Below are positions 5,664 to 27,361 of a DNA stretch of 54,098 bases, piece after piece; position 1 is the first letter of the stretch, and every line of letters begins with the position of its first letter. The notes beneath the pieces are model-generated. The model was not told the origin of the DNA. It saw only the letters and a list, made by a program, of their open reading frames with translations, and ran no database searches. Position numbers and translations under genes: made by a program. The DNA is from an uncultured Deferribacteraceae bacterium (GTDB lineage Bacteria > Chrysiogenota > Deferribacteres > Deferribacterales > Mucispirillaceae): NCBI GenBank assembly GCA_947039395.1, contig CAMQYS010000012.1, positions 1-54,098 on the forward strand. The letters run 5' to 3'.

Positions 5664-6869
5664 TTAGTTTGATTTATATTTTAAACAATATCCCTCTGGA
5701 GTTTCTCCACATACTTTATCAAACAACGTCTTGAAATTATCGCAAGCTGTATTTTTACTATCATCATAATCTTTATCGCATGCTTGTTTATATAAACTTA
5801 ACGCCTTATCTAAATCTTTTTCTACACCTGATCCGTTTTCATATAATACACCAAGATTTCCACAACCACCCATCTCATCTCCATCGCAAGCCATTTGATA
5901 TAACTCTATCGCTTTTATATAATCCTGCTTTACACCTAATCCATCATCATGCATAAGTCCTAAATTATAACAGCCTCGCATACCATCGCTACTTCCCTTA
6001 TCATCATCACACGATATTTTAAATAAACGTATCGCTTCATTATAATCAATAGTCACGCCTTTGCCGTGCTTATATAAAATACCTAGATTATTGCAACCTA
6101 TCATACTGCCATTATCACAAGCTTTTATATTTAACTCTTTTGATCTCTGATAATCTTTTTCTACCTCTTTTTCACTATAATAGATATATCCAAGATTGGC
6201 ACAACTATCATATATATCGGCATCACAAGCTTTCTCATATAGATCTATCGCTTTTTGATAATCTTGTGGAACACCTCTACCTAAATTATACTTTATTCCA
6301 AGATTGTTACATGCGAGCATGTTATTCTTATCGCAAGCCATGTTATAAAACTTGACTGCTCTAATATCATCTTGTTCAACACCGTTGCCTTCCCCATACA
6401 TAATGCCAAGATTGTTACATGCACTCAATACTCCTGCATCACAAGTCATTTCATATAGCTCTATCGCTTTTTGATAATCTTGCTTTACACCTAATCCATC
6501 ATCATACATAAGTCCAAGTGTGTAACATGAAAGCATGCTCCCACTATTACAAGCGTTTTCATATAGCTCTACTGCCTTACCATAATCTTGTTCAACACCA
6601 TTTCCATTGTGGTACATAACGCCTAGATTACCACAAGCCATTACATTTCCATTATCACAAGCTTCTCTAAAAAGCTCAACTGCTTTAGAATAATTTTGTT
6701 TAATACCATCTCCGTCGCTATACAGAGCTCCAAGAGTATTACACTCATTCATATCTCCACTGCTACACCTTTGTTTGTAAATATAAATTGCACTTGATTT
6801 ATCTGCACATGAAATAATGAAAATTGAAAAAATAATTGTAAGTAATGAAATAATATTGAATGGTTTCAT
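5664..6869 (-). CDS. Sel1-repeat (Hcp-like) lipoprotein, about ten repeats
   Basis: 401 aa from the ATG at 6869. That start is chosen because AAGGAG lies 9 bases upstream; the open frame extends to a TTG at 6890 that falls inside the Shine-Dalgarno region. The N-terminus has a lipobox, FIISC, after a hydrophobic stretch, so the mature protein should be lipid-anchored. About ten tandem Sel1 repeats of about 36 residues follow, with the recurring pattern AC-x6-C-x-NLG, then Y-x-x-G-x-GV-x-x-D, each closed by a cysteine pair. It is the largest of the Sel1 paralogues here. The repeats are so similar that copy-number change by recombination is likely. The role is inferred as protein binding at the cell envelope. 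Confidence 0.88.
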   Translation of the reverse strand: MKPFNIISLLTIIFSIFIISCADKSSAIYIYKQRCSSGDMNECNTLGALYSDGDGIKQNYSKAVELFREACDNGNVMACGNLGVMYHNGNGVEQDYGKAVELYENACNSGSMLSCYTLGLMYDDGLGVKQDYQKAIELYEMTCDAGVLSACNNLGIMYGEGNGVEQDDIRAVKFYNMACDKNNMLACNNLGIKYNLGRGVPQDYQKAIDLYEKACDADIYDSCANLGYIYYSEKEVEKDYQRSKELNIKACDNGSMIGCNNLGILYKHGKGVTIDYNEAIRLFKISCDDDKGSSDGMRGCYNLGLMHDDGLGVKQDYIKAIELYQMACDGDEMGGCGNLGVLYENGSGVEKDLDKALSLYKQACDKDYDDSKNTACDNFKTLFDKVCGETPEGYCLKYKSN

Positions 6870-7042
6870 ATAGCATTGCTCCTTGAACAATATAATTGAT
6901 ATGATTTATTTTATAGTTTGATAAGAGTTATATAAATATATAAAATAATATTCATATATTTGTAAGTGGTTATATATATTACTTGATTTGTTTCTCTTTG
7001 TTGTTAAAAAAACATTAATAAAAATGATAGATATAAACTAAT

Positions 7043-9640: not shown

Positions 9641-10486
9641 TTATTCGTACTTTGAACAATATTTTTTAGGATCAGTTATACATAATTTATCGTAAAGAAT
9701 TTTAAAATTCTTACATCCTATATCTTTTCCAAGATCACAAGTTTGCTTATATAAACCGAGTGCTTTATCGTAATCAATAGTTACGCCTTGTCCTTCACTA
9801 TACATAACTGCAAGGTTGTTACAACCGTTCGCATAGCGTGCATCACAAGTTTTTGTGTAATACATATTTGCTTTAGCGTAATCTTGTTTGATCCTATTAC
9901 CTAATGTGTACATCGCACCAAGATTATAACAACTAGTAATATATCCTCCATCGCAAGCTTTTGTATAAAGTGTGACAGCTTTCTTATAATCAGCACTTAT
10001 ATCTTTGCCTTGCTCATACATAAGAGCTAAATTATTACAGCCAGTACCATCTTCACCATTACAAGCTTTAGTGTAAAGTTTTACCGCTTTAGTTGGGTCT
10101 TTTTTGACACCTTGACCGTTACCATATAGAATCCCAAGATTAGAACATGCAGCCAGATAGTTCATATCACAAGATTTATTTAACAGCTTTAACCCTGCGT
10201 TAATATCTTTTTCAACTCCAATTCCGTATAGATACATACCACCTAAATCGCCACATCCTTGAGGATTATCTCCTTCACAAGCTAAGTTAACATATTTAAA
10301 AGCATTCTTATAATTTTTTGTTTCTTTCGCATAAAGTCTGCCTAAATCAGCACATGATTGAGTGTCGTTCTTCATACATTTTACTTCAAGTTTTTTGAAA
10401 TTATTATTAAATTTACTCGTTGCAGATACGGTGCTTACATTTGATATAAACAATATGAATGTTAAACTTATGATTACAAATTTCAT
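9641..10486 (-). CDS. Secreted Sel1-repeat (Hcp-like) protein, 281 aa
   Basis: The ATG at 10486 is preceded by AGGTG; the frame also offers a GTG three codons earlier inside that site. The N-terminus is a signal peptide (MKFVIISLTFILFISNVS, cleavage near VSA). Seven Sel1 repeats with the paired-cysteine Hcp pattern follow (ACEGDNPQGCGDLG, ACNGEDGTGCNNLA and so on). The tail ITDPKKYCSKYE is shared with the Sel1 gene at 19.3 kb and with a remnant at 23.85 kb, so the 3' ends of these paralogues are near-identical in DNA and can recombine. It marks the left edge of the plasmid-derived region. Confidence 0.88.
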   Translation of the reverse strand: MKFVIISLTFILFISNVSTVSATSKFNNNFKKLEVKCMKNDTQSCADLGRLYAKETKNYKNAFKYVNLACEGDNPQGCGDLGGMYLYGIGVEKDINAGLKLLNKSCDMNYLAACSNLGILYGNGQGVKKDPTKAVKLYTKACNGEDGTGCNNLALMYEQGKDISADYKKAVTLYTKACDGGYITSCYNLGAMYTLGNRIKQDYAKANMYYTKTCDARYANGCNNLAVMYSEGQGVTIDYDKALGLYKQTCDLGKDIGCKNFKILYDKLCITDPKKYCSKYE

Positions 10487-10520
10487 CTTTATCACCTATA
10501 GAATTAAGTCGTTAATCTTA

Positions 10521-11147: not shown

Positions 11148-11181
11148 CTAATAATTACTACAAGAGGTGTAACAAATATGT
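11148..11181 (-). promoter_or_regulatory. Leader motif shared with the gene at 14997
   Basis: On the minus strand TTGTTACACCTCT, T, GTAGTAAT lies about 35 bases before the start of the primase-type gene. The same 22 bases with one change stand before the zinc-ribbon gene at 14997. A conserved operator, promoter or RNA leader of the plasmid-derived element is likely. Confidence 0.45.
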
Positions 11182-11253: not shown

Positions 11254-12015
11254 CTAACTTATCTTATTAAACTTTCTAAATGCTTCGATTATTTCAAATA
11301 CGCCATAAGCTATTAAAGCCTTACCTAATAAATAAAGCGATCCACCTATAGATTTAAAACCCCAATGTGCTTGTGAACTATCCATAAACTTAACTAACAG
11401 CTTAGAGTCTGTTGGTATAAGGTATTTAAAGAACTCAGGCAAAAACATATTCAATTTAATATTAAATGCTTTAGTTACTGTTATTGAGGGATTTGAAAGT
11501 ATTGGTAAGAAATCGTTTATATGCTCAGCAAATGAGATATTAAATAGTGTAATAATTTCTTTAGAAGTAATAGGCATTGTGTGAAGAAATACTAGATAAA
11601 ATAGTCCAAAAAATAGAAGCCCACTGCCAAGCGTAAAACCAACTACTTGCCCCCAGTTTTGACCATGATTATTTGATATTTTACTTAGAAAAATAGAAAA
11701 TCGTTCAAAACGATTCTGCCATTTTTCATAACTGTATCTAAGTATTGCCTTTAGATGCTTTACTCTTGTTTGACAGTCTTTATGCTTAAGATACTTATAT
11801 ACAACTTTAGTATACGTATAAACTCGTTTTTGAGATATTAATTTACTCTTAAGTATAGGTGAATAAAGTTGTTTATCTTCAGCTTTGCATTCAAGTGCTT
11901 TGACAATATTATTTCTTTCTATTGCTTTACTTTTAAGTATGATTGCTGTATGATATATAGTAAATATTATATAAGTAAGAATGGGGAAATTAAATGGAGT
12001 TATTTGATAAATCAA
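11254..12015 (-). CDS. C-terminal fragment of a membrane protein
   Basis: 253 aa as an open frame. Features: a segment KSKAIERNNIVKALECKAED near residue 30, an ERF-type amphipathic region (YEKWQNRFERFSIFLSKISNNHGQNWG) near residues 95-120, then a transmembrane helix (VVGFTLGSGLLFFGLFYLVF), a soluble loop, and a C-terminal membrane segment GKALIAYGVFEIIEAFRKF. This matches the C-terminal half of bacterial membrane proteins that usually begin with a cytoplasmic, often pentapeptide-repeat, domain. That domain is absent. The first residues (about 11950-12015) look unrelated and overlap the divergent DUF6882 gene by 22 bases, so insertion of the immunity cassette probably cut the gene. Probably a pseudogene. 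Confidence 0.5.
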   Translation of the reverse strand: MIYQITPFNFPILTYIIFTIYHTAIILKSKAIERNNIVKALECKAEDKQLYSPILKSKLISQKRVYTYTKVVYKYLKHKDCQTRVKHLKAILRYSYEKWQNRFERFSIFLSKISNNHGQNWGQVVGFTLGSGLLFFGLFYLVFLHTMPITSKEIITLFNISFAEHINDFLPILSNPSITVTKAFNIKLNMFLPEFFKYLIPTDSKLLVKFMDSSQAHWGFKSIGGSLYLLGKALIAYGVFEIIEAFRKFNKIS

Positions 12016-12737
12016 AAAAGACAGCAGTGAAAATTGAAAGAACTTCTATATTTGAAACGGACTATCTATTAAATAAAAGCTCTTGGTTTGAAGTTTTTTC
12101 TGCTTGCCTTGGGCAAGTTATGGCTATACAAGATGCTTGTGGTGAACAGGTAATAAAAGGGCAAAATTGGAATGTCGACTTTGCAACTGGTCAACTTGCT
12201 TTTGGCAACCAATCATATCCTGTGCAATTTTTAGGAAGTGAGTCTAATTCAAGCTACACATGGAAATGGGGTTGGGATAATGTAAATGGATTTCCTACTT
12301 CTTTGATTGAATTGGCAAATACAACAAGAGATTTGGGAGAAAAATGGGATTTAGAACCATTATGTGTCGCGGACATTGAACTTGATGATACCTTTAATGG
12401 GTATACACTAGCAATTGTTGCTTGTGGAGTGTCGAAAGATAATTACTGCTATTATAGAGGTCCTCATGATGGAGGTGCTGTTTTAATGGTTTTTTCAGAT
12501 GTTCCTAACAGTGTGTTTAACCCTGTAGATGTACATAAATTTATTTCTATTACAATGGATTGTATTCAAGAATTTGAGGTTGATCATAAAATCTTCATTG
12601 AAAGCTTCTTACATTGGAACAAAATAAAATATAGTTGGGAAGGTCAAGCAATCATAGCTGAATTTTCTCAAAAGTTACATATTGAGTTTGAACAGTTAGA
12701 CGAGTTTTTAAGAATTTCTTCAATGAAAACAAAGTAA
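11994..12737 (+). CDS. DUF6882 family protein, immunity-type cargo gene
   Basis: 247 aa, no signal peptide or membrane segment. The DUF6882 pattern is visible: WNVDFATGQLAFG near residue 60, QFLGSESNSSYTWKWGWDN near residues 78-96, and YYRGPHDGG near residue 160. The family is uncharacterised but common in immunity-like loci of Firmicutes and host-associated bacteria. GGGG lies seven to ten bases before the ATG. It is followed, after about 12 bases, by the first copy of the TnpW leader module, the same arrangement as the gene at 13206. Its composition is less extreme (more TGG, GGA and CTT) than the neighbours, consistent with transfer. Confidence 0.75.
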   Translation: MELFDKSKKTAVKIERTSIFETDYLLNKSSWFEVFSACLGQVMAIQDACGEQVIKGQNWNVDFATGQLAFGNQSYPVQFLGSESNSSYTWKWGWDNVNGFPTSLIELANTTRDLGEKWDLEPLCVADIELDDTFNGYTLAIVACGVSKDNYCYYRGPHDGGAVLMVFSDVPNSVFNPVDVHKFISITMDCIQEFEVDHKIFIESFLHWNKIKYSWEGQAIIAEFSQKLHIEFEQLDEFLRISSMKTK

Positions 12738-12748
12738 GTATTATAAAC

Positions 12749-12960
12749 ATTGCACGCAAGTACTCCTATTCCCTAGCAACTAAGTAAAATAAAACTGAAT
12801 ATGCACAACACAAGCACTTATCGACGTGAGATATTATCTCAAAAATCGGTAAGTGCTTTTTTGCGTTATTGAAAGGAGCATAAAATATTGGAAAATAAGC
12901 AAAGAAACCTTGACAGATAAGGTGGAAAGGCTGATTTTAAGCGACTTACAGAAAGAAAAT
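12749..12960 (+). repeat. Cassette leader repeat, copy 1 (with internal deletion)
   Basis: Nearly identical to 13585-13871 from ATTGCACGCAAG to the end of the tnpW coding sequence, including CCTAGCAAC, AAGTAAAATAAAACTGAATA and the hairpin. Copy 1 lacks about 76 bases between GGAAAATAA and GCAAAGAAACC that are present in copy 2. The two copies bracket the gene at 13206-13559. Confidence 0.9.
12812..12862 (+). terminator. Long hairpin with T-run in the cassette leader (copy 1)
   Basis: AAGCACTTATCGA pairs with TCGGTAAGTGCTT (13 bp, one wobble), followed by six T. Inside the loop GAGAT pairs with ATCTC. It could terminate the upstream immunity gene or attenuate tnpW. Confidence 0.75.
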
Positions 12961-13077
12961 CAAAAGCTATCTACTTTGCGTGGGGAAATTTCCAGTGTCG
13001 AAAATATCCATATGCGAGTTGAGTTGATGACAGCAGAGCAGAGTATGAAAACCAAAAATAAGCAAGCCGAAATATAA
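12888..13077 (+). pseudogene. tnpW-like mini-gene, copy 1, disrupted
   Basis: The ribosome site GAAAGGAG and the start TTG are kept, but the deletion described for the repeat puts the rest out of frame. The shifted frame retains SKETLTDKVERLI and LSDLQKENQ, the C-terminal part of the TnpW-like protein, and then continues into KLSTLRGEISSVEN and a further 25 residues that copy 2 does not have. TnpW is a small protein of unknown function carried by Clostridia mobile elements. Confidence 0.55.
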
Positions 13078-13079
13078 AA

Positions 13080-13193
13080 TTAACATATTTTGGCTTGAAT
13101 TATGAAAGTGATTGCTACATGATATATGATAAAGATTATTTTGATAATAACGAAAAACAAAAAATATGGTGCAATGCCGTAAAATCAATATAA
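13080..13193 (+). pseudogene. C-terminal remnant of an unknown cassette protein
   Basis: An open stretch without a start encodes LTYFGLNYESDCYM, then YFDNNEKQKIWCNAVKSI and a stop, 13 bases before the ATG of the next gene. A homologous tail (YFINHENKKVRCNAVKRI) precedes the unrelated gene at 20018-20557. It is probably the end of the gene that normally stands upstream of the immunity genes in the donor. Confidence 0.45.
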
Positions 13194-13205
13194 TTGGAGG
13201 AAAAT

Positions 13206-13559
13206 ATGGAAAAGAAGTTTTTTACTAACATTAAAGATATTAGTGATGATGACAAAGTTTATAGGGGAGCTACATTTTTATTTTTCTCAACACCAAAAGG
13301 ATTGGAATGTGGAGTATTTATTCCTGATGATGGATTAACTTATATATTAGCAAGTAATGGTTTTTTAGTTTGTCTTTCGATTGGTGAAGAGGGAAATATA
13401 ACATGTCAACTTGACTTTGGTGAAAAACCTTATGCTATTGGAAAAGAAATTAAGCGAATGTTATTGTGTGATTTGCATGATGTGTATATTAGTCCAAAAA
13501 TGAAATATTCTATTGAACTTAATGAGTATATGTTGAATCAGCCATTTACTCTAACTTAA
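13206..13559 (+). CDS. Hypothetical protein, probable immunity-type cargo
   Basis: 117 aa from the ATG at 13206, with GGAGG five bases upstream; a TTG four codons earlier lies inside the ribosome site. I do not recognise the family. It is cytoplasmic and compact, predicted mostly beta with a C-terminal helix: KVYRGATFLFFSTPKG, GVFIPDDGLTYIL, FGEKPYAIGKEIKRMLL. It sits exactly between the two direct repeats of the TnpW leader module and after a remnant of another gene, so it is cargo of a small cassette. Size, solitary cytoplasmic nature and company (DUF6882, SUKH) suggest an immunity protein; that is inference only. Confidence 0.6.
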   Translation: MEKKFFTNIKDISDDDKVYRGATFLFFSTPKGLECGVFIPDDGLTYILASNGFLVCLSIGEEGNITCQLDFGEKPYAIGKEIKRMLLCDLHDVYISPKMKYSIELNEYMLNQPFTLT

Positions 13560-13584
13560 GCTTATTTTTCTGAGTAAAATGAGA

Positions 13585-13877
13585 ATTGCACGCAAGCACC
13601 CATATTCCCTAGCAACCAAGTAAAATAAAACTGAATATGCACAACGCAAGCACTTATCGACGTGAGATATTATCTCAAAAATAGGTAAGTGCTTTTTTGC
13701 GTCCTTGAAAGGAGTAAAATATTGGAAAATAAACAACTAGCAACTACCCCAACATTCACACAAAATCGGCAACACCAATTATGTGATAAATGTTCACTTT
13801 AGCAAAACAAGCAAAGAAACCTTGACCGATAAGGTGGAAAGGCTGATTTTAAGCGACTTACAGAAAGAAAATCAGTA
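13585..13877 (+). repeat. Cassette leader repeat, copy 2
   Basis: Direct repeat of 12749-12960, carrying the longer version of the tnpW-like region. It ends where the MobF relaxase remnant begins, so the cassette lies at or replaced the relaxase N-terminus. Confidence 0.9.
13649..13698 (+). terminator. Long hairpin with T-run in the cassette leader (copy 2)
   Basis: Same structure as copy 1: AAGCACTTA pairs with TAAGTGCTT, with an inner GAGAT/ATCTC hairpin and a run of six T. One base differs in the 3' arm region (ATAGG for ATCGG). Confidence 0.75.
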
Positions 13878-13878
13878 A
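13722..13878 (+). pseudogene. tnpW-like mini-gene, copy 2, frameshifted
   Basis: The TTG start at 13722 has GAAAGGAG in front and gives ENKQLATTPTF. A different frame then continues as HKIGNTNYVINVHFSKTS and KETLTDKVERLILSDLQ before TAA at 13876. The two parts would join with two extra bases, giving about 52 aa. The KIGNTxYxVxxHFSxTSxET core is the signature of transposon-encoded TnpW-like proteins of Clostridia. Confidence 0.6.
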
Positions 13879-14930
13879 ATATTTTCCGTTTTAAAAAAGT
13901 TCTTCTTGACAAAAACACTAATGATGAAAGTGAGAACTCTCTATGGCAAGGCTCACTTGCTCAAGAATTAAGTCTCACAGGGGCTGTTAAAGCCGAAGAT
14001 TTTAAAGCACTACTAGTAGGGCATGATACTAAGTCCGATAAAATACTCGTACAAGCTGGAGTGAATAAAGAACATCGTGCTGGCATTGATCTTGTGTTCT
14101 CTGCTCCTAAATCAGTATCAATCGTCGCTCTACATCTAGGTGATGAAGCCGTGATCGATGCACACAATCAAGCCGTGATAAAAGCACTAGATTATGTTGA
14201 GAAAAATTTAATCCAATATAGAGAGTTTGATCCTATCGCTAAAGACGTATTCAAAGTGAAATCTGATAACATGGTTGTTGGGACATTCGTTCATTCCACA
14301 AGTAGAAGTAATGATCCTCAACTGCATACTCATTCTGTAATCCTTAATATCACTAAAATAAACAAGAAGCAATTCAAAGCTATATCGAATGAGTTGATTT
14401 TTAACAATCAGAAATTAATCAATAATATCTATCAAAATGAACTCGCATTAAATATCCAAAATTTAGGATACAAAATTGATAACTACGATAACAAGTTTGA
14501 AATAGCAGGAGTTATAGAAGATATCATAGATGATAAAGTCTATATAAAAACAAAGAACGATAGAGAGATAATTATCAATATAGATAACTACTCACACATC
14601 GATCATGCGTACGCTCAAACGCTCCATAAATCACAAGGAGCAACGTGCAAAAAAGCAATTCTATTGCATAGCAAAAGTGACTATCTGTCAACAGAAGCGT
14701 TATACGTTGCAGCAACTAGAGCAACGGATGAATTCAAAATTCTAACATCTGACAAAAAGAAACTGATGGATACATCTAAAAGAGCACAAGCGAAAAGTTC
14801 AACAAGAGATTTTAGTGGAGTTATCGATACTGTTATTCGTCAACAGACTGAAAAAGAGGCACAAGCAGAGGCGAACGCTGCCTTAAAAGCTACCTTAGAC
14901 CATACTTTAGACGCTGTTAATCAAAAGTGA
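13878..14930 (+). pseudogene. MobF (TraI/TrwC-type) relaxase, N-terminally truncated and internally deleted
   Basis: The frame is open from 13878 to TGA at 14930. Visible: WQGSLAQELSLTG near its start, AGIDLVFSAPKSVS, then HSTSRSNDPQLHTHSVILN with the three metal-binding histidines of the MobF HUH fold. The N-terminal catalytic tyrosines are absent because the frame begins at the edge of the TnpW cassette. After LGYKIDNYDNKFEIAGV the sequence jumps directly to the last RecD-like helicase segment (DHAYAQTLHKSQGATCKKAILL, VAATRATDEFKIL), so several hundred residues, including Walker A, are missing. It cannot nick or unwind DNA as written. An internal GTG at 14061 gives a 289-aa product if translated. 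It is a relic of a conjugative plasmid together with the genes to 19.2 kb. Confidence 0.8.
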
Positions 14931-14952: not shown

Positions 14953-14981
14953 TTGTTACACCTCTAGTAGTAATCTATATA
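14953..14981 (+). promoter_or_regulatory. Promoter-like leader motif shared with the primase-type gene
   Basis: TTGTTA (14953), 17 bases, TATATA (14976): a well-spaced promoter by appearance. However, a start of transcription near 14988 would remove the GGAGGT ribosome site at 14983-14988. The block TTGTTACACCTCT-A-GTAGTAAT recurs at 11148-11181, which suggests an operator or transcribed leader. Confidence 0.45.
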
Positions 14982-19307: not shown

Positions 19308-19889
19308 CTATTTAATTATAATTAAAATTTGTTCGTACTTACTACAATACTTTTTAGGATCAGTTAAACATACCTTATTATATATATACTTAAAATTACT
19401 ACATCCTAAATCGTTGCCACCATCACAAGATTTCTTAAATGCATCTAATGCTTTATCGTAATCAATAGCTACATCATGCCTACCAAAAGAGTAAGTCATT
19501 CCAATATTATTACAACTAATTGTATCTCCACCATTGCAAGCTTTAGTATAGTACTTACAAGCTTTTATAAAGTCTTTTTTTACCACTAATCCATTGTCGT
19601 AAAATGTTCCAACATTATAACACGCGAACATCTTGCCACCGTTACATGCTTTAGTATAATATTCCATTGCTTTAACATAATCGGGTTTGATACCCATATT
19701 ATCATATCTATCGCCAACATTATCATATCTATAACCACTGTAATAAATATCTCCAAGACGTGCACACTCATCAGCGTTACCATTATCACACTTTTCAATA
19801 GACTCGTTGAATAATGATTGATCGTCAGCATATAAAAAAGACGTGCTAGATGATAATAGTAGAAGAAAAACTATAATATAAAACCTCAT
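19308..19889 (-). CDS. Secreted Sel1-repeat (Hcp-like) protein, 193 aa
   Basis: A signal peptide (MRFYIIVFLLLLSSSTSFLYAD, given here in part) is followed by about four Sel1 repeats with paired cysteines (ACNGGKMFACYNVG, ACNGGDTISCNNIG). Two imperfect copies of a YDNxG stretch (RYDNVGDRYDNMG) break the second repeat, a small internal duplication. The C-terminus CSKYE is extended by QILIIIK compared with the paralogue at 9641 because the ancestral stop codon is changed. GGAGGAG precedes the ATG. It interrupts the plasmid-derived region. Confidence 0.85.
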   Translation of the reverse strand: MRFYIIVFLLLLSSSTSFLYADDQSLFNESIEKCDNGNADECARLGDIYYSGYRYDNVGDRYDNMGIKPDYVKAMEYYTKACNGGKMFACYNVGTFYDNGLVVKKDFIKACKYYTKACNGGDTISCNNIGMTYSFGRHDVAIDYDKALDAFKKSCDGGNDLGCSNFKYIYNKVCLTDPKKYCSKYEQILIIIK

Positions 19890-20017: not shown

Positions 20018-20557
20018 TCAATCTTTAAATTTTTCAAGTCTGTTTTTTAGATAAGATTTTATATCTTCTGTATGTGATAAATTAGCAATAAAACTCCAAT
20101 TCCAATCCACAAGTATAAATGAACCTAAATTATTTATTGATTTAAACATGTTAAGTGCAATCACAATATCATTTTCTTTTGCTATATCCAGTGTAAGCCA
20201 TATGTATTCAACAATACCATCTTTAGTTTGACAGAACAACACAACATTTTCATCATTACCATAGGCAGTTATGGAATTGCATAACTCATGATAGGAACTA
20301 TAACCTGTGTATACTTCATCATATTTGAATAAAACTTCACTTATACAACTTTCTAAAGCACTTATTGTGATACCCTTGTCATATGTATCAACGGTGTTTT
20401 TGCTACGCAGGAAAATCTCACTATATCCCTCACCACTTCTATGCTCATCAGCAAATGAATCAATATCTTTTGCCTGATTGATGCAATGCGTTTCATTTTC
20501 TTGTGGTACTATTTCAATTTGCTGAAAATCATCCTCGTAAAAATAGATACTTCTCAT
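20018..20557 (-). CDS. Hypothetical protein, probable immunity-type cargo
   Basis: 179 aa from the ATG at 20557, with GGAGG nine bases upstream; the frame also opens six codons earlier inside the ribosome site. I do not recognise the family. It is a soluble acidic protein with mixed strands and helices (EIFLRSKNTVD, SFILVDWNWSF, IKSYLKNRLEKF). The 75 bases before its start are homologous to those before the gene at 13206, including the end of an upstream reading frame, so it came in through the same kind of cassette. It replaced the 3' part of a Sel1 gene, whose remnant follows upstream. Immunity function is inferred from context. Confidence 0.6.
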   Translation of the reverse strand: MRSIYFYEDDFQQIEIVPQENETHCINQAKDIDSFADEHRSGEGYSEIFLRSKNTVDTYDKGITISALESCISEVLFKYDEVYTGYSSYHELCNSITAYGNDENVVLFCQTKDGIVEYIWLTLDIAKENDIVIALNMFKSINNLGSFILVDWNWSFIANLSHTEDIKSYLKNRLEKFKD

Positions 20558-20632
20558 AACAGACCTCCTTCCCAATTATATTCTTTTTACGGCATTGCAT
20601 CGTACTTTTTTGTTTTCGTGATTAATAAAATA
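20558..20632 (-). repeat. Cassette upstream junction (homologous to 13127-13205)
   Basis: On the minus strand GATGCAATGCCGTAAAA and AATATAATTGG match the region before the gene at 13206, where they read GGTGCAATGCCGTAAAA and AATATAATTGG. In both places they encode CNAVK-(R/S)-I and a stop just before the cargo gene. Confidence 0.75.
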
Positions 20633-20639
20633 ACCTGCA

Positions 20640-20904
20640 CCATACATTATACAGAAATTTCACCGCAGGCATCAATAAAGCCGTCATTACAAGGTTTGGT
20701 TGATAGTTATATTGATTTATTAGTATTTATATCTACTCCTACGGCAATCATATACATGCTACCTAAATCAGTATATCCTGTAGGGTTATTATTTTCACAA
20801 GCAATTTCAGCATACTTTAAAGTAACCATATCTTTTGCATATAGTGAAGTTGATAATAAAGATGTAAAAAATAAAAAATATAAGTGTCTTTTCTATTTAT
20901 TCAT
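20640..20904 (-). pseudogene. Sel1-repeat gene, 5' remnant
   Basis: Starting at ATG 20904 the frame has TAG as fourth codon, then a signal peptide (FLFFTSLLSTSLYAKD), the start of a Sel1 repeat (YAEIACENNNPTGYTDLGSM), a TAA, and KPCNDGFIDACGEIS before another stop and the cassette junction. Its upstream region resembles that of the other Sel1 genes. The DUF-type cargo gene took the place of the rest. Confidence 0.75.
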
Positions 20905-21131: not shown

Positions 21132-23738
21132 ATGAGTGTTTTACAACCTGATGATAAGGTAACGTTTTACGAGGCTTCTAAAGATAGATATTGTTTTACC
21201 GTCTTTATCAACAATAATGATAAAACAAATGAAGTTGAATATATGTATAAAAAACTCCAATATGTTTATGTAAAGTTTTTTAGTAACTCAAAGCCATATA
21301 AATATAATTCTAAAAATGTAACGATAGTAAAAAAAAATAATATTTTAAGTGATTCAGAATATATAAAGAAGATGGAGTATTTCTCTGAAGGATCAGAAAC
21401 CATAAAGTTTAAAAACGTTGAAGATGAAGAAGAGGGCGATAGTATTCTTAAAGGTTATTTCGATAAGATTAACGTAATTCCTGATTATTCTGTTCTTGGA
21501 ACATATCTATCTAAACAACCTATTGCTAAGAAAACTTTTGATACAAATAAATTAATTTATCCTTTCGGTATTAATCCAAGTCAAAAAGAAGCTGTAGAAA
21601 ATACTTTTTTATCACAGATAAGTATTATTGAAGGTGCACCTGGCACAGGTAAAACTCAAGTAATATTATCAATTATTGCTAACCTAATATTAAACAACTA
21701 CTCTGTAGCTGTAGTTTCAAATAATAATGCTGCTATTAAAAATGTTGAAGAGAAACTTGAAAAATATAATTTTGATTTTTTAACAGCGTTCTTAGGCTCA
21801 AAAGAGAATAAAGAAAAATTTATCTCTAATCAAGTTGAAAAATATCCTGATCTATCAGCTTGGAAACATAAAGACATTAGCGACTTAGAAGAAACTATCT
21901 ACAATAATATCACCAAAATAGAAACAGGGTTAACTTGTCAGAATGTGTTAGCAAAACTTATTCAATCAAAAGCAGAGTATGTTTTAGAGGATACCTATTT
22001 TGATAGAGATTACGAAACTGCACAGAGAAATATTAAGTTAGAGAAAGCTTTAACTAATATATCTTCAGACAAGATATTTAAATTATGGTTTTATTGTACT
22101 AATCAAAAAGATCGTAAAAAGGATTCTCCATCATTTTTAAATAAATTATTTTTCTTAAGAAAGTTGAAGCATAAATATCTATTTTTAAAAGAGAAAAATC
22201 TTCTTTTATATGTAGCATCTATACAGAAAGCATATTACAACTCTAAAATTAAAGAGTTGGAAAATCTTATAGATGAAATAAATTCATTCCTAACCAACTT
22301 TAACATGGATGAGATGCTGAAGAGTCTTAATGCTAATTCTCTAAAAGTGTTACAACGAAAAATGTTTGATAGATATCAAGGTAAAGAACATAAAAAAGTT
22401 TCAATCAATGAGATGTCTTCAATTAGTACAAGTTTTAAAGATGAGTATCCTATAATTTTTAGCACACTATATTCGATCAAAAATATGTGTAATGATGGTA
22501 GTTTTTTTGATTATATTATTGTTGATGAAGCCTCTCAAGCTGATCTTATAACTAGCGTGCTTGGAATGTCTTGTGCTAAAAATATGGTGATAGTTGGCGA
22601 TCTAAAACAACTTCCAAATGTTATTACAAGAGATGTAATTGCAAAGGGTAAAATGATATGGAGTAAATATAATTATGATGATGCTTATAAATATTTTCAA
22701 CATAGTTTACTATCATCTATTGCAGAGTTATATCCTGAAATCCCATCGGTGTTGTTGAAAGAACATTATCGTTGTCATCCAAAAATAATTAATTTTTGTA
22801 GTAAAAAGTTTTACAATGATGATCTGATTATTATGACAGAAGATATTGAGGATAAAAATACGTTAAGCTCCATAAAAGCTGTAGAGGGTAATCATGCAAG
22901 GGGTAGGTATAATCAAAGACATATAGATATTATATTACAAGAAATTATGCCTAATATTGATGGTAATGCAAGTATCGGAATTATCGCTCCATATAGAGAT
23001 CAAGTTGCAAAGATGAGAAAATATTTTTCTGATAATATAGAGATTGATACTATTCATAAATTTCAAGGTAGAGAGAAAGATATAATAATTTTTTGTACGG
23101 TTGATGATAATATTACAGATTTTGTTGATAATGCTAATATGATTAATGTTGCAGTATCAAGAGCTGTAACAAACTTTTTCTTAGTGTACTCAAATGAGAA
23201 ACCTAAAAGTAGCTCAAATATTTTAGATCTTGTTAATTATATTAAGTACAATAATTTTGATGTTATTTCAAGTAAAGTACGTTCAATTTTCGATCTACTA
23301 TATAAACAGTATGCAGAAGAGAAGATTAGATTTTTAGCAAAGAATAAAGCTGTATCAGTTTATGATTCTGAAAATTTAGCATACGCTTGTATCAATGAAG
23401 TTTTACATGAGAATAATATTAGTTCGATTGATTTTGTTCATGCTATGCCTTTAAAAAACTTTATAAAAACAGATGAAGATTTTACTGATGAAGAGCTTAC
23501 ATTTATTGAAAGAAATTCACATGTTGATTTTTTGTTTTACAATACAATGAATAAAATCCCATACTTAGCAGTAGAGATTGATGGACATGAATTTCATAAA
23601 AATAATAGAAAGCAAATAGATAGAGATATTATTAAAGACGGTATTTTAGAAAAAGCTGGGATTAAGTTATTGCGACTTCCTTCAACAGGTAGCAATGAAA
23701 AACAGAAACTCAAGATAGCTATTTTAGGGATAGGGTAG
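21132..23738 (+). CDS. Superfamily 1 (UPF1-like) helicase with C-terminal DUF2726/nuclease-like domain
   Basis: 868 aa. Helicase motifs in order: NPSQKEAVENTF (Q motif, about residue 149), GAPGTGKTQVIL (Walker A, about 169), IIVDEASQAD (Walker B, about 464), GDLKQLPNV (motif III, about 487), EHYRCHPKIINF (motif IV, about 545), IDTIHKFQGREKDI (motif V, about 640) and NVAVSRA (motif VI, about 677). The C-terminal region HVDFLFYNT, LAVEIDGHEFH and GIKLLRLP is a DUF2726-type restriction-endonuclease-like fold. Such fusions are ATP-driven helicases with a putative nuclease, frequently found on mobile elements and in defence islands; the substrate is unknown. GGAG lies nine bases before the ATG. 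It is a monocistronic plus-strand gene with all motifs intact, unlike its decayed neighbours. Confidence 0.85.
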   Translation: MSVLQPDDKVTFYEASKDRYCFTVFINNNDKTNEVEYMYKKLQYVYVKFFSNSKPYKYNSKNVTIVKKNNILSDSEYIKKMEYFSEGSETIKFKNVEDEEEGDSILKGYFDKINVIPDYSVLGTYLSKQPIAKKTFDTNKLIYPFGINPSQKEAVENTFLSQISIIEGAPGTGKTQVILSIIANLILNNYSVAVVSNNNAAIKNVEEKLEKYNFDFLTAFLGSKENKEKFISNQVEKYPDLSAWKHKDISDLEETIYNNITKIETGLTCQNVLAKLIQSKAEYVLEDTYFDRDYETAQRNIKLEKALTNISSDKIFKLWFYCTNQKDRKKDSPSFLNKLFFLRKLKHKYLFLKEKNLLLYVASIQKAYYNSKIKELENLIDEINSFLTNFNMDEMLKSLNANSLKVLQRKMFDRYQGKEHKKVSINEMSSISTSFKDEYPIIFSTLYSIKNMCNDGSFFDYIIVDEASQADLITSVLGMSCAKNMVIVGDLKQLPNVITRDVIAKGKMIWSKYNYDDAYKYFQHSLLSSIAELYPEIPSVLLKEHYRCHPKIINFCSKKFYNDDLIIMTEDIEDKNTLSSIKAVEGNHARGRYNQRHIDIILQEIMPNIDGNASIGIIAPYRDQVAKMRKYFSDNIEIDTIHKFQGREKDIIIFCTVDDNITDFVDNANMINVAVSRAVTNFFLVYSNEKPKSSSNILDLVNYIKYNNFDVISSKVRSIFDLLYKQYAEEKIRFLAKNKAVSVYDSENLAYACINEVLHENNISSIDFVHAMPLKNFIKTDEDFTDEELTFIERNSHVDFLFYNTMNKIPYLAVEIDGHEFHKNNRKQIDRDIIKDGILEKAGIKLLRLPSTGSNEKQKLKIAILGIG

Positions 23739-25360: not shown

Positions 25361-25516
25361 TTAATGCGATATTACAGATTTTTTTGAATATGTTTTAGTA
25401 AATCTTGCAATCTTATTTATAAAGGTTTCACTGCTTGTTTCACTAGAATACACATTTGCATCATAGGTGGTGTTATCTATTTTAGTTACAATTTGTGGTT
25501 CTGTTTCTCTATTATC
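25361..25516 (-). pseudogene. tnpW-like mini-gene, copy 3 (inverted), start lost
   Basis: The frame reads REtEPQIVTKIDNTTY, then DANVYSSETSSETFINKIAR and a 14-residue basic tail before TAA at 25361. The KIxNTTYxxxVxxSxTSxETFxxKI core matches the TnpW-like copies at 13.7 kb. The ATG at 25524 is in another frame and gives only 12 codons, so the 5' end carries a small insertion or deletion. Confidence 0.6.
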
Positions 25517-25655
25517 CTATACATAAATTTCCTTTCAAGAATACAAAAAATACCTATCGATTTATGAGATAATATATCAAGTCGATAACTGCTTTAATCA
25601 TGATTTATTTAGTTTTTAGTAATTAGTTTTATTCTACTTGGTTGCTAGAAAACAG
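25517..25655 (-). repeat. Cassette leader repeat, copy 3 (inverted, diverged)
   Basis: On the minus strand CTAGCAACCAAGTAGAATAAAACT is followed about 30 bases later by TTATCGAC, ATATTATCTCATAAATCGATA and a T-run, then GAAAGGA before the mini-gene. Order and sequence match copies 1 and 2. It follows the SUKH gene just as the other copies follow their cargo genes. Confidence 0.7.
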
Positions 25656-25682
25656 TGTACTTTCATTCAACGATAAGTTTAT

Positions 25683-26306
25683 TTAGTCGTCATCATCTAG
25701 AAAATCATCATTTAGAAAGTCATATTCTCTAAGCATAATTTTTTCTAAATACTCATCAAAACTATTTGCAATTACTTCAAACTCATCAGGATCATGAACA
25801 AACATAATTACTTGTCCATACACACCTTGTTCACTTGGTGAAAAATCAATAAAAAGTGTTGATGTGCCACCGTTATTACTGCAATCAGAAAAATGTAGCC
25901 AATTCATTTTTTTTGAGTCTTGTATAATCTTTTCATCTATAGATGCTAATTCATCATGCTCATCATCTAACATTTCTTCATACAACTCGAAAGCTTCATT
26001 TTTATTTTTTATAATCTGCTTTGTTGATAATAGATAATAGGGATACTCCTCCAAGTCAGAGCCTAGTATAAAACATGTTAAAGTTCCACCACTATATTTT
26101 CTAAAATATGTACCATCTACAATTTGTAGTAAATCAATAAGTGTTTTAGGTGTGTTAGGATATAGTTCTAAAAGTTTTTTTATGTCACTATCGGTTGCAC
26201 CTTGTGATAATCTTTTGAAATCTTCATAATCCTTTTTTCTAAATTCATCTTCAATAAGCTCATAAGCATTTTTTAGTCCATCTATATACTTTTTAGCTAA
26301 ACTCAT
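25683..26306 (-). CDS. SMI1/KNR4 (SUKH) family protein, immunity-type
   Basis: 207 aa from the ATG at 26306, with GGGAG eight bases upstream; the frame extends 16 codons further without a ribosome site. The SUKH pattern is visible: SQGATDSDIKKLLELYP (the family's helix plus P) near residue 35, TPKTLIDLLQIVDGTYF near residue 50, LHFSDCSNNGGTSTLFIDFSPSEQGVYGQVIMF near residues 138-170 (interrupted here for length: HFSDCSNNGG, then LFIDFSPS, then GQVIMF), and SFDEYLEKI near residue 185. SUKH proteins are the largest immunity family against polymorphic nuclease and other toxins. It ends in an acidic tail (DDDD). The TnpW leader module follows directly, so it is cassette cargo. No cognate toxin is visible. 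Confidence 0.8.
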   Translation of the reverse strand: MSLAKKYIDGLKNAYELIEDEFRKKDYEDFKRLSQGATDSDIKKLLELYPNTPKTLIDLLQIVDGTYFRKYSGGTLTCFILGSDLEEYPYYLLSTKQIIKNKNEAFELYEEMLDDEHDELASIDEKIIQDSKKMNWLHFSDCSNNGGTSTLFIDFSPSEQGVYGQVIMFVHDPDEFEVIANSFDEYLEKIMLREYDFLNDDFLDDDD

Positions 26307-26437
26307 TTCTTTTCTCCCATTTATATATAATTTATACACTCTTAACCTAATCATTATATCTTAAGGGTGTTATAAAATTATGTATCATCATATTTTTTTT
26401 GGTTATTCCTACAGTCTCAAATATCCATAGCCCCATA

Positions 26438-27017
26438 TTATTCGAAAAGTATGTTATTACAGAGTATTTCTTTGTTATTATCTATATATCTACAGGTAAA
26501 AAGAGGTTCTTTGATCATTGACTTATAAAATTTTTCAGCTAGTTTAGATAGTTCGTTAATACTAAAAGGGATATTTAATTTATTAGCAATCATAGATCGA
26601 ACCTCAATCCAATTATGCCATCTATCTCCGTACTCTTCACACATTCTATCAATATCCCCATTGCAGTATTTTCTAAAAATCCTTTTTTAGTGTAAATACC
26701 ATTATAGATAAAATCAACAAACCACTCTATATGAATTAAAAATGTTAGAAGTTCTTTCAAGTTTTCTGCAATTCGTCCAATGCAGCCTCAGAGCTAATAA
26801 ATCCAATAGTATTGTCCTCTAGTAAAACATATTCACCACCATCACCATCATAGGCAAATACTTTGCACTCAAGAGATATTGTTTCTTCATTTGCTAAATA
26901 TTCTATATCTTGTATATCATCATACAACCCTATATGGCACTGCTTTAAAAGTGTATTGTGTAATTCTTTATCATGTAAGATTATTTTGATAATTTTATCA
27001 GACATATTGATATTCAC
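26438..27017 (-). pseudogene. SUKH/immunity-like gene broken by two frameshifts
   Basis: Three successive frames give one continuous protein of about 190 aa. The first begins at ATG 27017 and ends FAYDGDGGEYVLLEDNTIGF, then ISSEAALDE. The second, from about 26770, continues ENLKELLTFLIHIEWFVDF and GIYTKKGFLENT. The third, from about 26660, reads MCEEYGDRWHNWIEV to the stop at 26438. The AYDGxGGEYVLLEDxxIGFISSE box is typical of small immunity-like proteins. The shifts lie near 26760 (CTTGAAAG region) and 26660. Intact, it would be a further cargo gene beside the SUKH gene. Confidence 0.65.
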
Positions 27018-27361
27018 TTCTACTGAACTTAATATGTTATATTCGTTTTTGGCACAAGAAAAAAATCAAGTATTGTTTAATTATTAAAATAATTCTTATT
27101 CTAAGTAATATAGTAAACATTTCCATAATGCAAGAGATAATAGGTGAGTTTTATATTTCTACATATTTTTTGTTTATTCAAAATAGGTAGTTGTTTTATC
27201 TGCATAGAGACATTTATGCTGTTGAGAGAGTGCTTTAGAGTATAAATGTTTTTGTATGGGTATAGATAACTATTAGTAGTTGTATATACAGGAATATTAT
27301 GTGATGAAATAAGTATTTATGAGTATAATGGTATGGTTCAAGCAATATATGATTTAAAAAA
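27018..27361. other. Gap with no recognised feature
   Basis: About 340 bases between the broken immunity gene and the GLUG lipoprotein terminator. No open frame with a ribosome site, no RNA gene and no repeat is seen; the sequence is A/T-rich with a few TATAAT-like hexamers that cannot be assigned. Confidence 0.4.

Follow-up and report, generated by a model that had tools for sequence, protein, structure and literature searches.

Two fused, decayed 3' ends of a probable Tn4451-like IME hold different cargo genes in one slot

Tn4451-like IMEs combine a large serine recombinase and a 2-bp target with a mobA/mobL gene near the right end, and Tn4451 itself carries one accessory gene, catP (PMC3158075). 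Decayed elements that keep their ends are described as CIMEs, and IMEs can undergo accretion (PMC5704250); IMEs with Rep_trans-type relaxases integrate in the oriT of ICEs, which is their target (PMC7563843). Orphan immunity genes accompanied by conserved intergenic motifs are a feature of the rAID systems (PMC12247911), and orphan immunity repertoires in gut bacteria have so far been described mainly for Bacteroidales, with a recombinase of their own. Extensive interphylum gene acquisition and a T6SS have been reported for Mucispirillum schaedleri (PMC5285517), both of which would fit the cassettes described below if our host is a relative. Our searches of open-access papers found none that describes this cassette arrangement.

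The window, by which we mean the whole 54,098-nucleotide stretch analysed (G+C 30%), comes from the genome of an uncultured Deferribacteraceae bacterium (G000). Its segment of interest is two fused, left-truncated copies of the 3' end of a Tn4451-like IME. The first copy reads DUF6882 gene, leader, hairpin and tnpW remnant, and the second reads relaxase C-terminus, 5' flank, 117-aa gene, leader, hairpin, tnpW pseudogene and right end. The features of the two copies (cassettes A and B) and of the gene that follows them are listed here.

11924..11981, + strand: weak remnant of the 5' flank of cassette A, before the DUF6882 gene (71% to 13093-13150, in register)
11994..12737, + strand: cargo A, DUF6882 protein of 247 aa (PF21813, E 3.9e-26)
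12745..12811, + strand: 3' leader of cassette A (93% to copy B; 88-94% to Fusobacteriaceae and Spirochaetia copies)
12812..12864, + strand: terminator-like hairpin with T-run, cassette A (-23.5 kcal/mol, z -6.3)
12871..12878, + strand: GAAAGGAG, cassette A, from its sequence the likely tnpW ribosome-binding site
12885..12962, + strand: tnpW remnant A, internally deleted (95% to L019 tnpW over 60 nt; partial PF14202)
12952..13077, + strand: MobA/MobL relaxase C-terminus, start of the second element (90% DNA to the L019 relaxase gene; tblastn match to L019 MobL)
13063..13096, + strand: hairpin across the relaxase stop codon (-15.0 kcal/mol, z -6.7)
13078..13205, + strand: 5' flank of cargo B, conserved in an alignment of 13 cassettes from three phyla (88-89% to L019, L210 and C6a)
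13206..13559, + strand: cargo B, 117-aa gene of no recognised family
13581..13647, + strand: 3' leader of cassette B, from the 3' leader alignment
13648..13700, + strand: terminator-like hairpin with T-run, cassette B (-24.3 kcal/mol, z -6.0)
13722..13874, + strand: tnpW pseudogene B, frameshifted (PF14202, 47.5 bits at 13762-13857; 92% DNA to L019 tnpW)
13878..13917, + strand: element right end (..GTTCTTCTTGACAAAAACA), followed by CT at 13918-13919 (common to L019 and L210; trwC homology from 13918)
13918..14930, + strand: remnant of an interrupted MOBF relaxase gene (trwC) with an internal deletion (PF08751, 7.9e-45)

The two copies align as direct repeats in a block of 150 bases (12737-12886 and 13573-13722, 89%) and a block of 71 bases (12892-12962 and 13804-13874, 97%). 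Their best blastn match scores 226 bits, compared with at most 28 bits in 50 shuffles, which bears out the proposal of the first-pass annotation that cargo B is flanked by direct repeats. The leader, T-run hairpin and GAAAGGAG site that it had assigned to each repeat are likewise present in both copies, the second site lying at 13707-13714. Its boundaries needed adjustment: DUF6882 does end just before the first repeat, but leader homology begins 8 bases beyond that end rather than 12, and the second repeat, placed at 13585-13877, is present but runs past 13877 to a right end near 13917. That annotation did not include the conserved flank on the 5' side of the cargo. Covariation in the 3' hairpin is weak (a two-sided change in 2 of 11 pairs, covariation term +0.3), and the case for this structure is therefore one of single-sequence stability. 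The relaxase stop codon is spanned by a hairpin in L019 as well.

The tnpW family is named for Tn4451/Tn4453-type elements. Each repeat had been thought to hold a TnpW-like mini-gene; tnpW sequence indeed occurs in both, but neither is intact, since copy A is internally deleted and copy B is frameshifted and lacks a whole reading frame. Copy B scores 47.5 bits against PF14202 (TnpW), for which the cut-off is 25, and copy A falls below it at 16.2 bits; the matches above cut-off, at 13762-13857 and 25403-25486, are both remnants. The best outside TnpW match, with 88% protein identity, is in L019, a locus of a Fusobacteriaceae MAG. Elsewhere in the host genome, PF14202 matches stand directly behind several leader/hairpin copies. 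TnpW, a protein of unknown role, gains a fixed position beside a cargo slot. TnpW-bearing elements also occur on plasmids, in L016 (Klebsiella IncC, Pseudomonadota) and L015 (Campylobacter coli, Campylobacterota), one of which adjoins aminoglycoside-resistance genes.

The anatomy of the parent element can be read from relatives. In L019 the order is large serine recombinase N-terminus, MobA/MobL relaxase, racemase cargo, leader, hairpin, tnpW and right end, with the recombinase N-terminus fused to the relaxase through an internal deletion. A complete but more distant relative, the 8.5-kb circle OY725856.1 (L099), carries a serine recombinase, a relaxase, a primase-like ATPase gene and tnpW. 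The MobL relaxase lies upstream of tnpW in most of the 80 loci compared, which are mainly from Clostridia, and in two cargo-free relatives (L016 and L057) a hairpin-like stretch, read by eye, sits directly between the two genes. Relaxase remnants persist at 12952-13077 and in several other cassettes, and the left boundaries of the cassettes vary; the relaxase C-terminal peptide had no match among plasmids. No large serine recombinase is present in the window copies, which marks them as remnants derived from a Tn4451-like IME and not as working members. Neither that gene nor a left end was found in the host genome with the L019 left end as query, so it is from the relatives that we infer insertion by a serine recombinase. 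Relaxase-driven, integrase-free transposition was considered when the first loci showed a relaxase only, and was dropped once serine recombinase sequence was found to the left in L019 and L099. Among about 1,260 genomes, with few candidates scored per genome, we found no intact autonomous element with the leader.

The right end is common to the window, L019 and the spirochaete locus L210, each of which has CTTGACAAAAA, two bases and then CT; the CT at the same offset in all three could reflect a 2-bp core, although no left junction was found. Homology to the trwC genes of two congeners, G037 and G036, starts exactly at 13918, and element B thus interrupts trwC near its 5' end. At this one insertion the right side can be compared with an empty site, as trwC is uninterrupted at the insertion point in G037:C39, G036:C17 and G036:C48. 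No left portion of trwC turned up further upstream in the window, which indicates loss or rearrangement of the left side. The trwC remnant is itself internally deleted at 14061-14930, where the relaxase domain is directly joined to a helicase C-terminal piece; the G037 gene has approximately 1.8 kb more there. A 22-bp inverted repeat (95%), ATTACTACAAGAGGTGTAACAA, lies at 11154-11175 and 14953-14974, ahead of two divergent genes. Since G037 and G036 have a similar sequence before trwC, the repeat probably serves the conjugative element as a shared promoter or operator.

Many of the 80 tnpW loci share a CTTGAC-containing end followed by variable DNA, which in our reading of the translations often resembles conjugative-element genes. 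Many Clostridia and Bifidobacterium loci (L022-L098) end in GTCCTTGAC(TTTTCGTCTCTGG), after which recurrent gene-like sequence follows, and these right ends are a ready data set for the study of target-site specificity.

The arrangement is not confined to this segment. The host genome contains at least 14 cassettes, each with a different small gene and each retaining the 5' flank, the 3' leader/hairpin or both, though not every cassette has both. The leader/hairpin was found at six further places in this genome, one of them inside the window (25530-25594). A query of the L019 relaxase and cargo-upstream DNA led to cassettes on C6 (three), C11, C26, C43, C2 and C32, and in the window to one at 27078, which belongs to cassette D. 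Besides A and B, the window contains cassettes C and D, both on the opposite strand.

20018..20654, - strand: cassette C, with its 5' flank at 20575-20654 (placed by blastn at 20575-20633) and a 185-aa cargo at 20018-20575
25403..27175, - strand: cassette D, with its 5' flank at 27078-27175, an 86-aa ORF, a SUKH-1 gene at 25683-26354 and, as its 3' part (- strand), the leader/hairpin at 25530-25670 and a tnpW remnant at 25403-25486

Also in the window, an 868-aa AAA_11/AAA_12 helicase with a DUF2726 domain is encoded at 21132-23738; PADLOC MkoA/MkoC models match its helicase part, making it a possible defence gene. The genes at 5664-6890, 9641-10495 and 19308-19889 were read as encoding Sel1-like repeat proteins, diverged copies of which occur on many contigs of the host genome.

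Across three phyla, 13 cargo genes are preceded by a common 5' flank, in which both the relaxase stop region and the motif AATACGGTGCAATGCCGTAAA lie, and an alignment of nine copies defines the common 3' leader/hairpin. Among the 51 genomes of the host's phylum in our collection, the leader is found in one congener, G037, besides the host, and several other host cassettes occupy the same loci in G037. The C6 island, where three cassettes lie between iadA-like and TPR-like genes, is absent at the corresponding place in G036 and G037; its cassettes are found on other G037 contigs at 92-98%. Beyond the phylum, a strong flank match with other cargo was found in at least 1 of 98 Fusobacteriota genomes (G051), and flanks with other cargos in at least 2 of 393 Spirochaetota genomes (G195 and G052), both counts being lower bounds because the large searches scored few candidates per genome. 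Matches in the Chakrabartyella order fell mostly in the tnpW coding part. The recurrence of the order cargo, leader, hairpin and TnpW with varied cargo had been set in advance as a test, and this order recurs both in the host genome and in other phyla. The window repeat had no match among plasmid and phage records, and the exact leader, hairpin and 5'-flank patterns had none in viral contigs. The exact hairpin pattern was also unmatched in 84,980 species genomes, as its loop and arms vary.

The cargo itself is diverse. Host cassettes carry DUF6882, SUKH-1, DUF2695, DUF3781 and DUF6707 proteins and several of no family; DUF4275, DUF1877 and SUKH-1 proteins occupy the slot in the spirochaete G195, and an alpha/beta hydrolase and a metallo-hydrolase in G052. 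SUKH-1 is the known immunity family of one window cargo and one spirochaete cargo, the others being DUFs or proteins without a family. From knowledge of the family, the SUKH cargos likely protect against toxins of rival bacteria, and the same is plausible for other cargos. Use of the slot extends beyond immunity, as the racemase and hydrolase cargos show. The earlier description of the cargo as single immunity genes is only partly right: many cargos have no known function, and in some relatives the slot is taken by a racemase or by hydrolases. Cargo B had no match in Pfam, NCBIfam, PADLOC or plasmids; its matches to PDB 'Cake' chains, presumably designed repeat proteins, were rejected, as they covered only 32 residues of repetitive chains. 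Single-sequence structure predictions of both cargos, the DUF6882 protein included, were poor (pLDDT 39 and 34). The F. vincentii relative of DUF6882 is C-terminal within a longer protein that is encoded close to a phage-type integrase, a context that neither supports nor excludes DUF6882 as an immunity family. A GAD-like/Tdi1-type immunity gene adjoins the C11 cassette, and an Imm33 gene lies near a leader fragment on C44; both are neighbors rather than proven cargo.

We consider it likely that the segment consists of two fused, decayed 3' ends of a Tn4451-like IME whose cargo varies but whose cargo slot is fixed. While intact, such an element would depend on its own large serine recombinase for insertion and excision, and on its MobL relaxase, together with a helper conjugation system, for transfer. 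Its cargo is short, in most cases a single gene, and lies between the relaxase gene and the leader/terminator ahead of tnpW, following the conserved 5' flank and ending at the terminator hairpin; its type varies and is often immunity-like. Between elements, cargo may be exchanged by homologous recombination in these flanks. Where insertion recurs and the recombinase and the greater part of the relaxase are then lost, the cargo would be left as scattered or tandem cassettes. Tandem pairs would arise from neighboring insertions with a deletion between them, as in decayed IMEs. The predicted variation of the cargo is borne out, but the repeat belongs to the 3' portion of an IME and is not a free recombination cassette.

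A related and somewhat improbable reading is that the leader/hairpin and 5' flank act as homology arms through which cargo is swapped between remnants, independent of element mobility. Homology does stop near gene borders, with the leader starting between 1 base ahead of the cargo stop codon and 26 bases beyond it in the six copies measured, and 13 cargos have a 5' flank in common. The flanks are also mosaic: leaders agree at 88-94% among L020, L019 and the window, with L020 at 94% to L019, yet the L020 tnpW reaches only 79% to those of L019 and the window; in C6a, a 5' flank 91% to L019 is paired with a right end 98% to L020. This mosaicism makes cargo exchange by homologous recombination in the flanks plausible, although part of the pattern could come from selection that acts more strongly on the leader than on tnpW, so such exchange is something we infer. 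The arms, however, are short (approximately 80-140 bases, 70-94% identical) and would be poor RecA substrates, and we found no two loci that lie in the same chromosomal surroundings but have swapped cargo. Moreover, exchange within live elements before insertion would give the same slot pattern, and neighboring insertions plus deletion explain the tandem pairs at least as well.

It is very unlikely that these are integron-like or rAID-like cassettes in which the leader/hairpin is the attachment site of a dedicated tyrosine recombinase. A gene with a conserved, structured 3' element, repeated with variable small immunity-type genes, does resemble such systems, and rAID systems have orphan immunity genes with conserved intergenic motifs (PMC12247911). 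However, among the ORFs read beside the cassettes no tyrosine recombinase was recognised except a broken one by tnpW in L211, read from its translation; the cassettes are spread over at least nine contigs, mostly singly; and the repeat runs on into tnpW and the right end common to serine-recombinase IMEs. Local duplication or misassembly, by which the copies would have arisen in place, is hardly credible. The window does have one tandem pair in a draft assembly of 64 contigs, but the copies hold different genes, many dispersed copies exist elsewhere, and the spirochaete G195 has an independent tandem pair with a different breakpoint, inside the hairpin. The copies also differ by 7-11% and in deletions, which makes a simple assembly duplication unlikely.

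With the decayed IME as the preferred reading, we tentatively propose that the relaxase-tnpW cargo slot, with its conserved flanks, is dedicated to expression and serves to exchange single immunity-type genes between elements and to seed them into unrelated gut bacteria, giving rise to orphan repertoires without the toxin. The scatter of such remnants, with different genes, through the host genome and a few unrelated bacteria points to a way in which genes for defence against rivals may spread. If the cassettes are functional, with cargo that may be expressed and protective, they would represent a second, cross-phylum route via small mobilizable elements. The conserved flanks would also provide a sequence handle with which new immunity-type genes, such as the 117-aa gene, can be collected from metagenomes.

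Compared with known systems, the parent element, as read from its relatives, shares with Tn4451/Tn4453, and with Tn6104 of C. difficile, a large serine recombinase, a right-end MobA/MobL relaxase, few accessory genes and tnpW. The elements described here differ in that they are decayed and lie in Deferribacterota-like, Fusobacteriota and Spirochaetota genomes, have a single cargo slot, which is placed between relaxase and tnpW and conserved in its flanks on both the 5' and the 3' side, and often carry immunity-like rather than resistance cargo. As in CIMEs, integration and transfer genes are lost and decayed and incoming structures stand in tandem; unlike in CIMEs, only right ends were found, and the cassettes are dispersed instead of stacked at one attB. 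The insertion of a mobilizable element inside a site of another conjugative element recalls the IMEs in the oriT of ICEs, although in our case it is the trwC relaxase gene of the other element that is interrupted, and by a MobL-type element. Like the cassettes, the rAID systems of Bacteroidales bring together orphan immunity-type genes of small size, some of them SUKH, and conserved intergenic motifs, again in gut bacteria (PMC12247911). Here, by contrast, no associated tyrosine recombinase was recognised among the ORFs read, the flanks belong to an IME, and there is no long co-oriented array, the cassettes being mostly single and dispersed, with two in tandem in the window and three on C6. 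In function, the rAID system is the nearest parallel to the cassettes described here.
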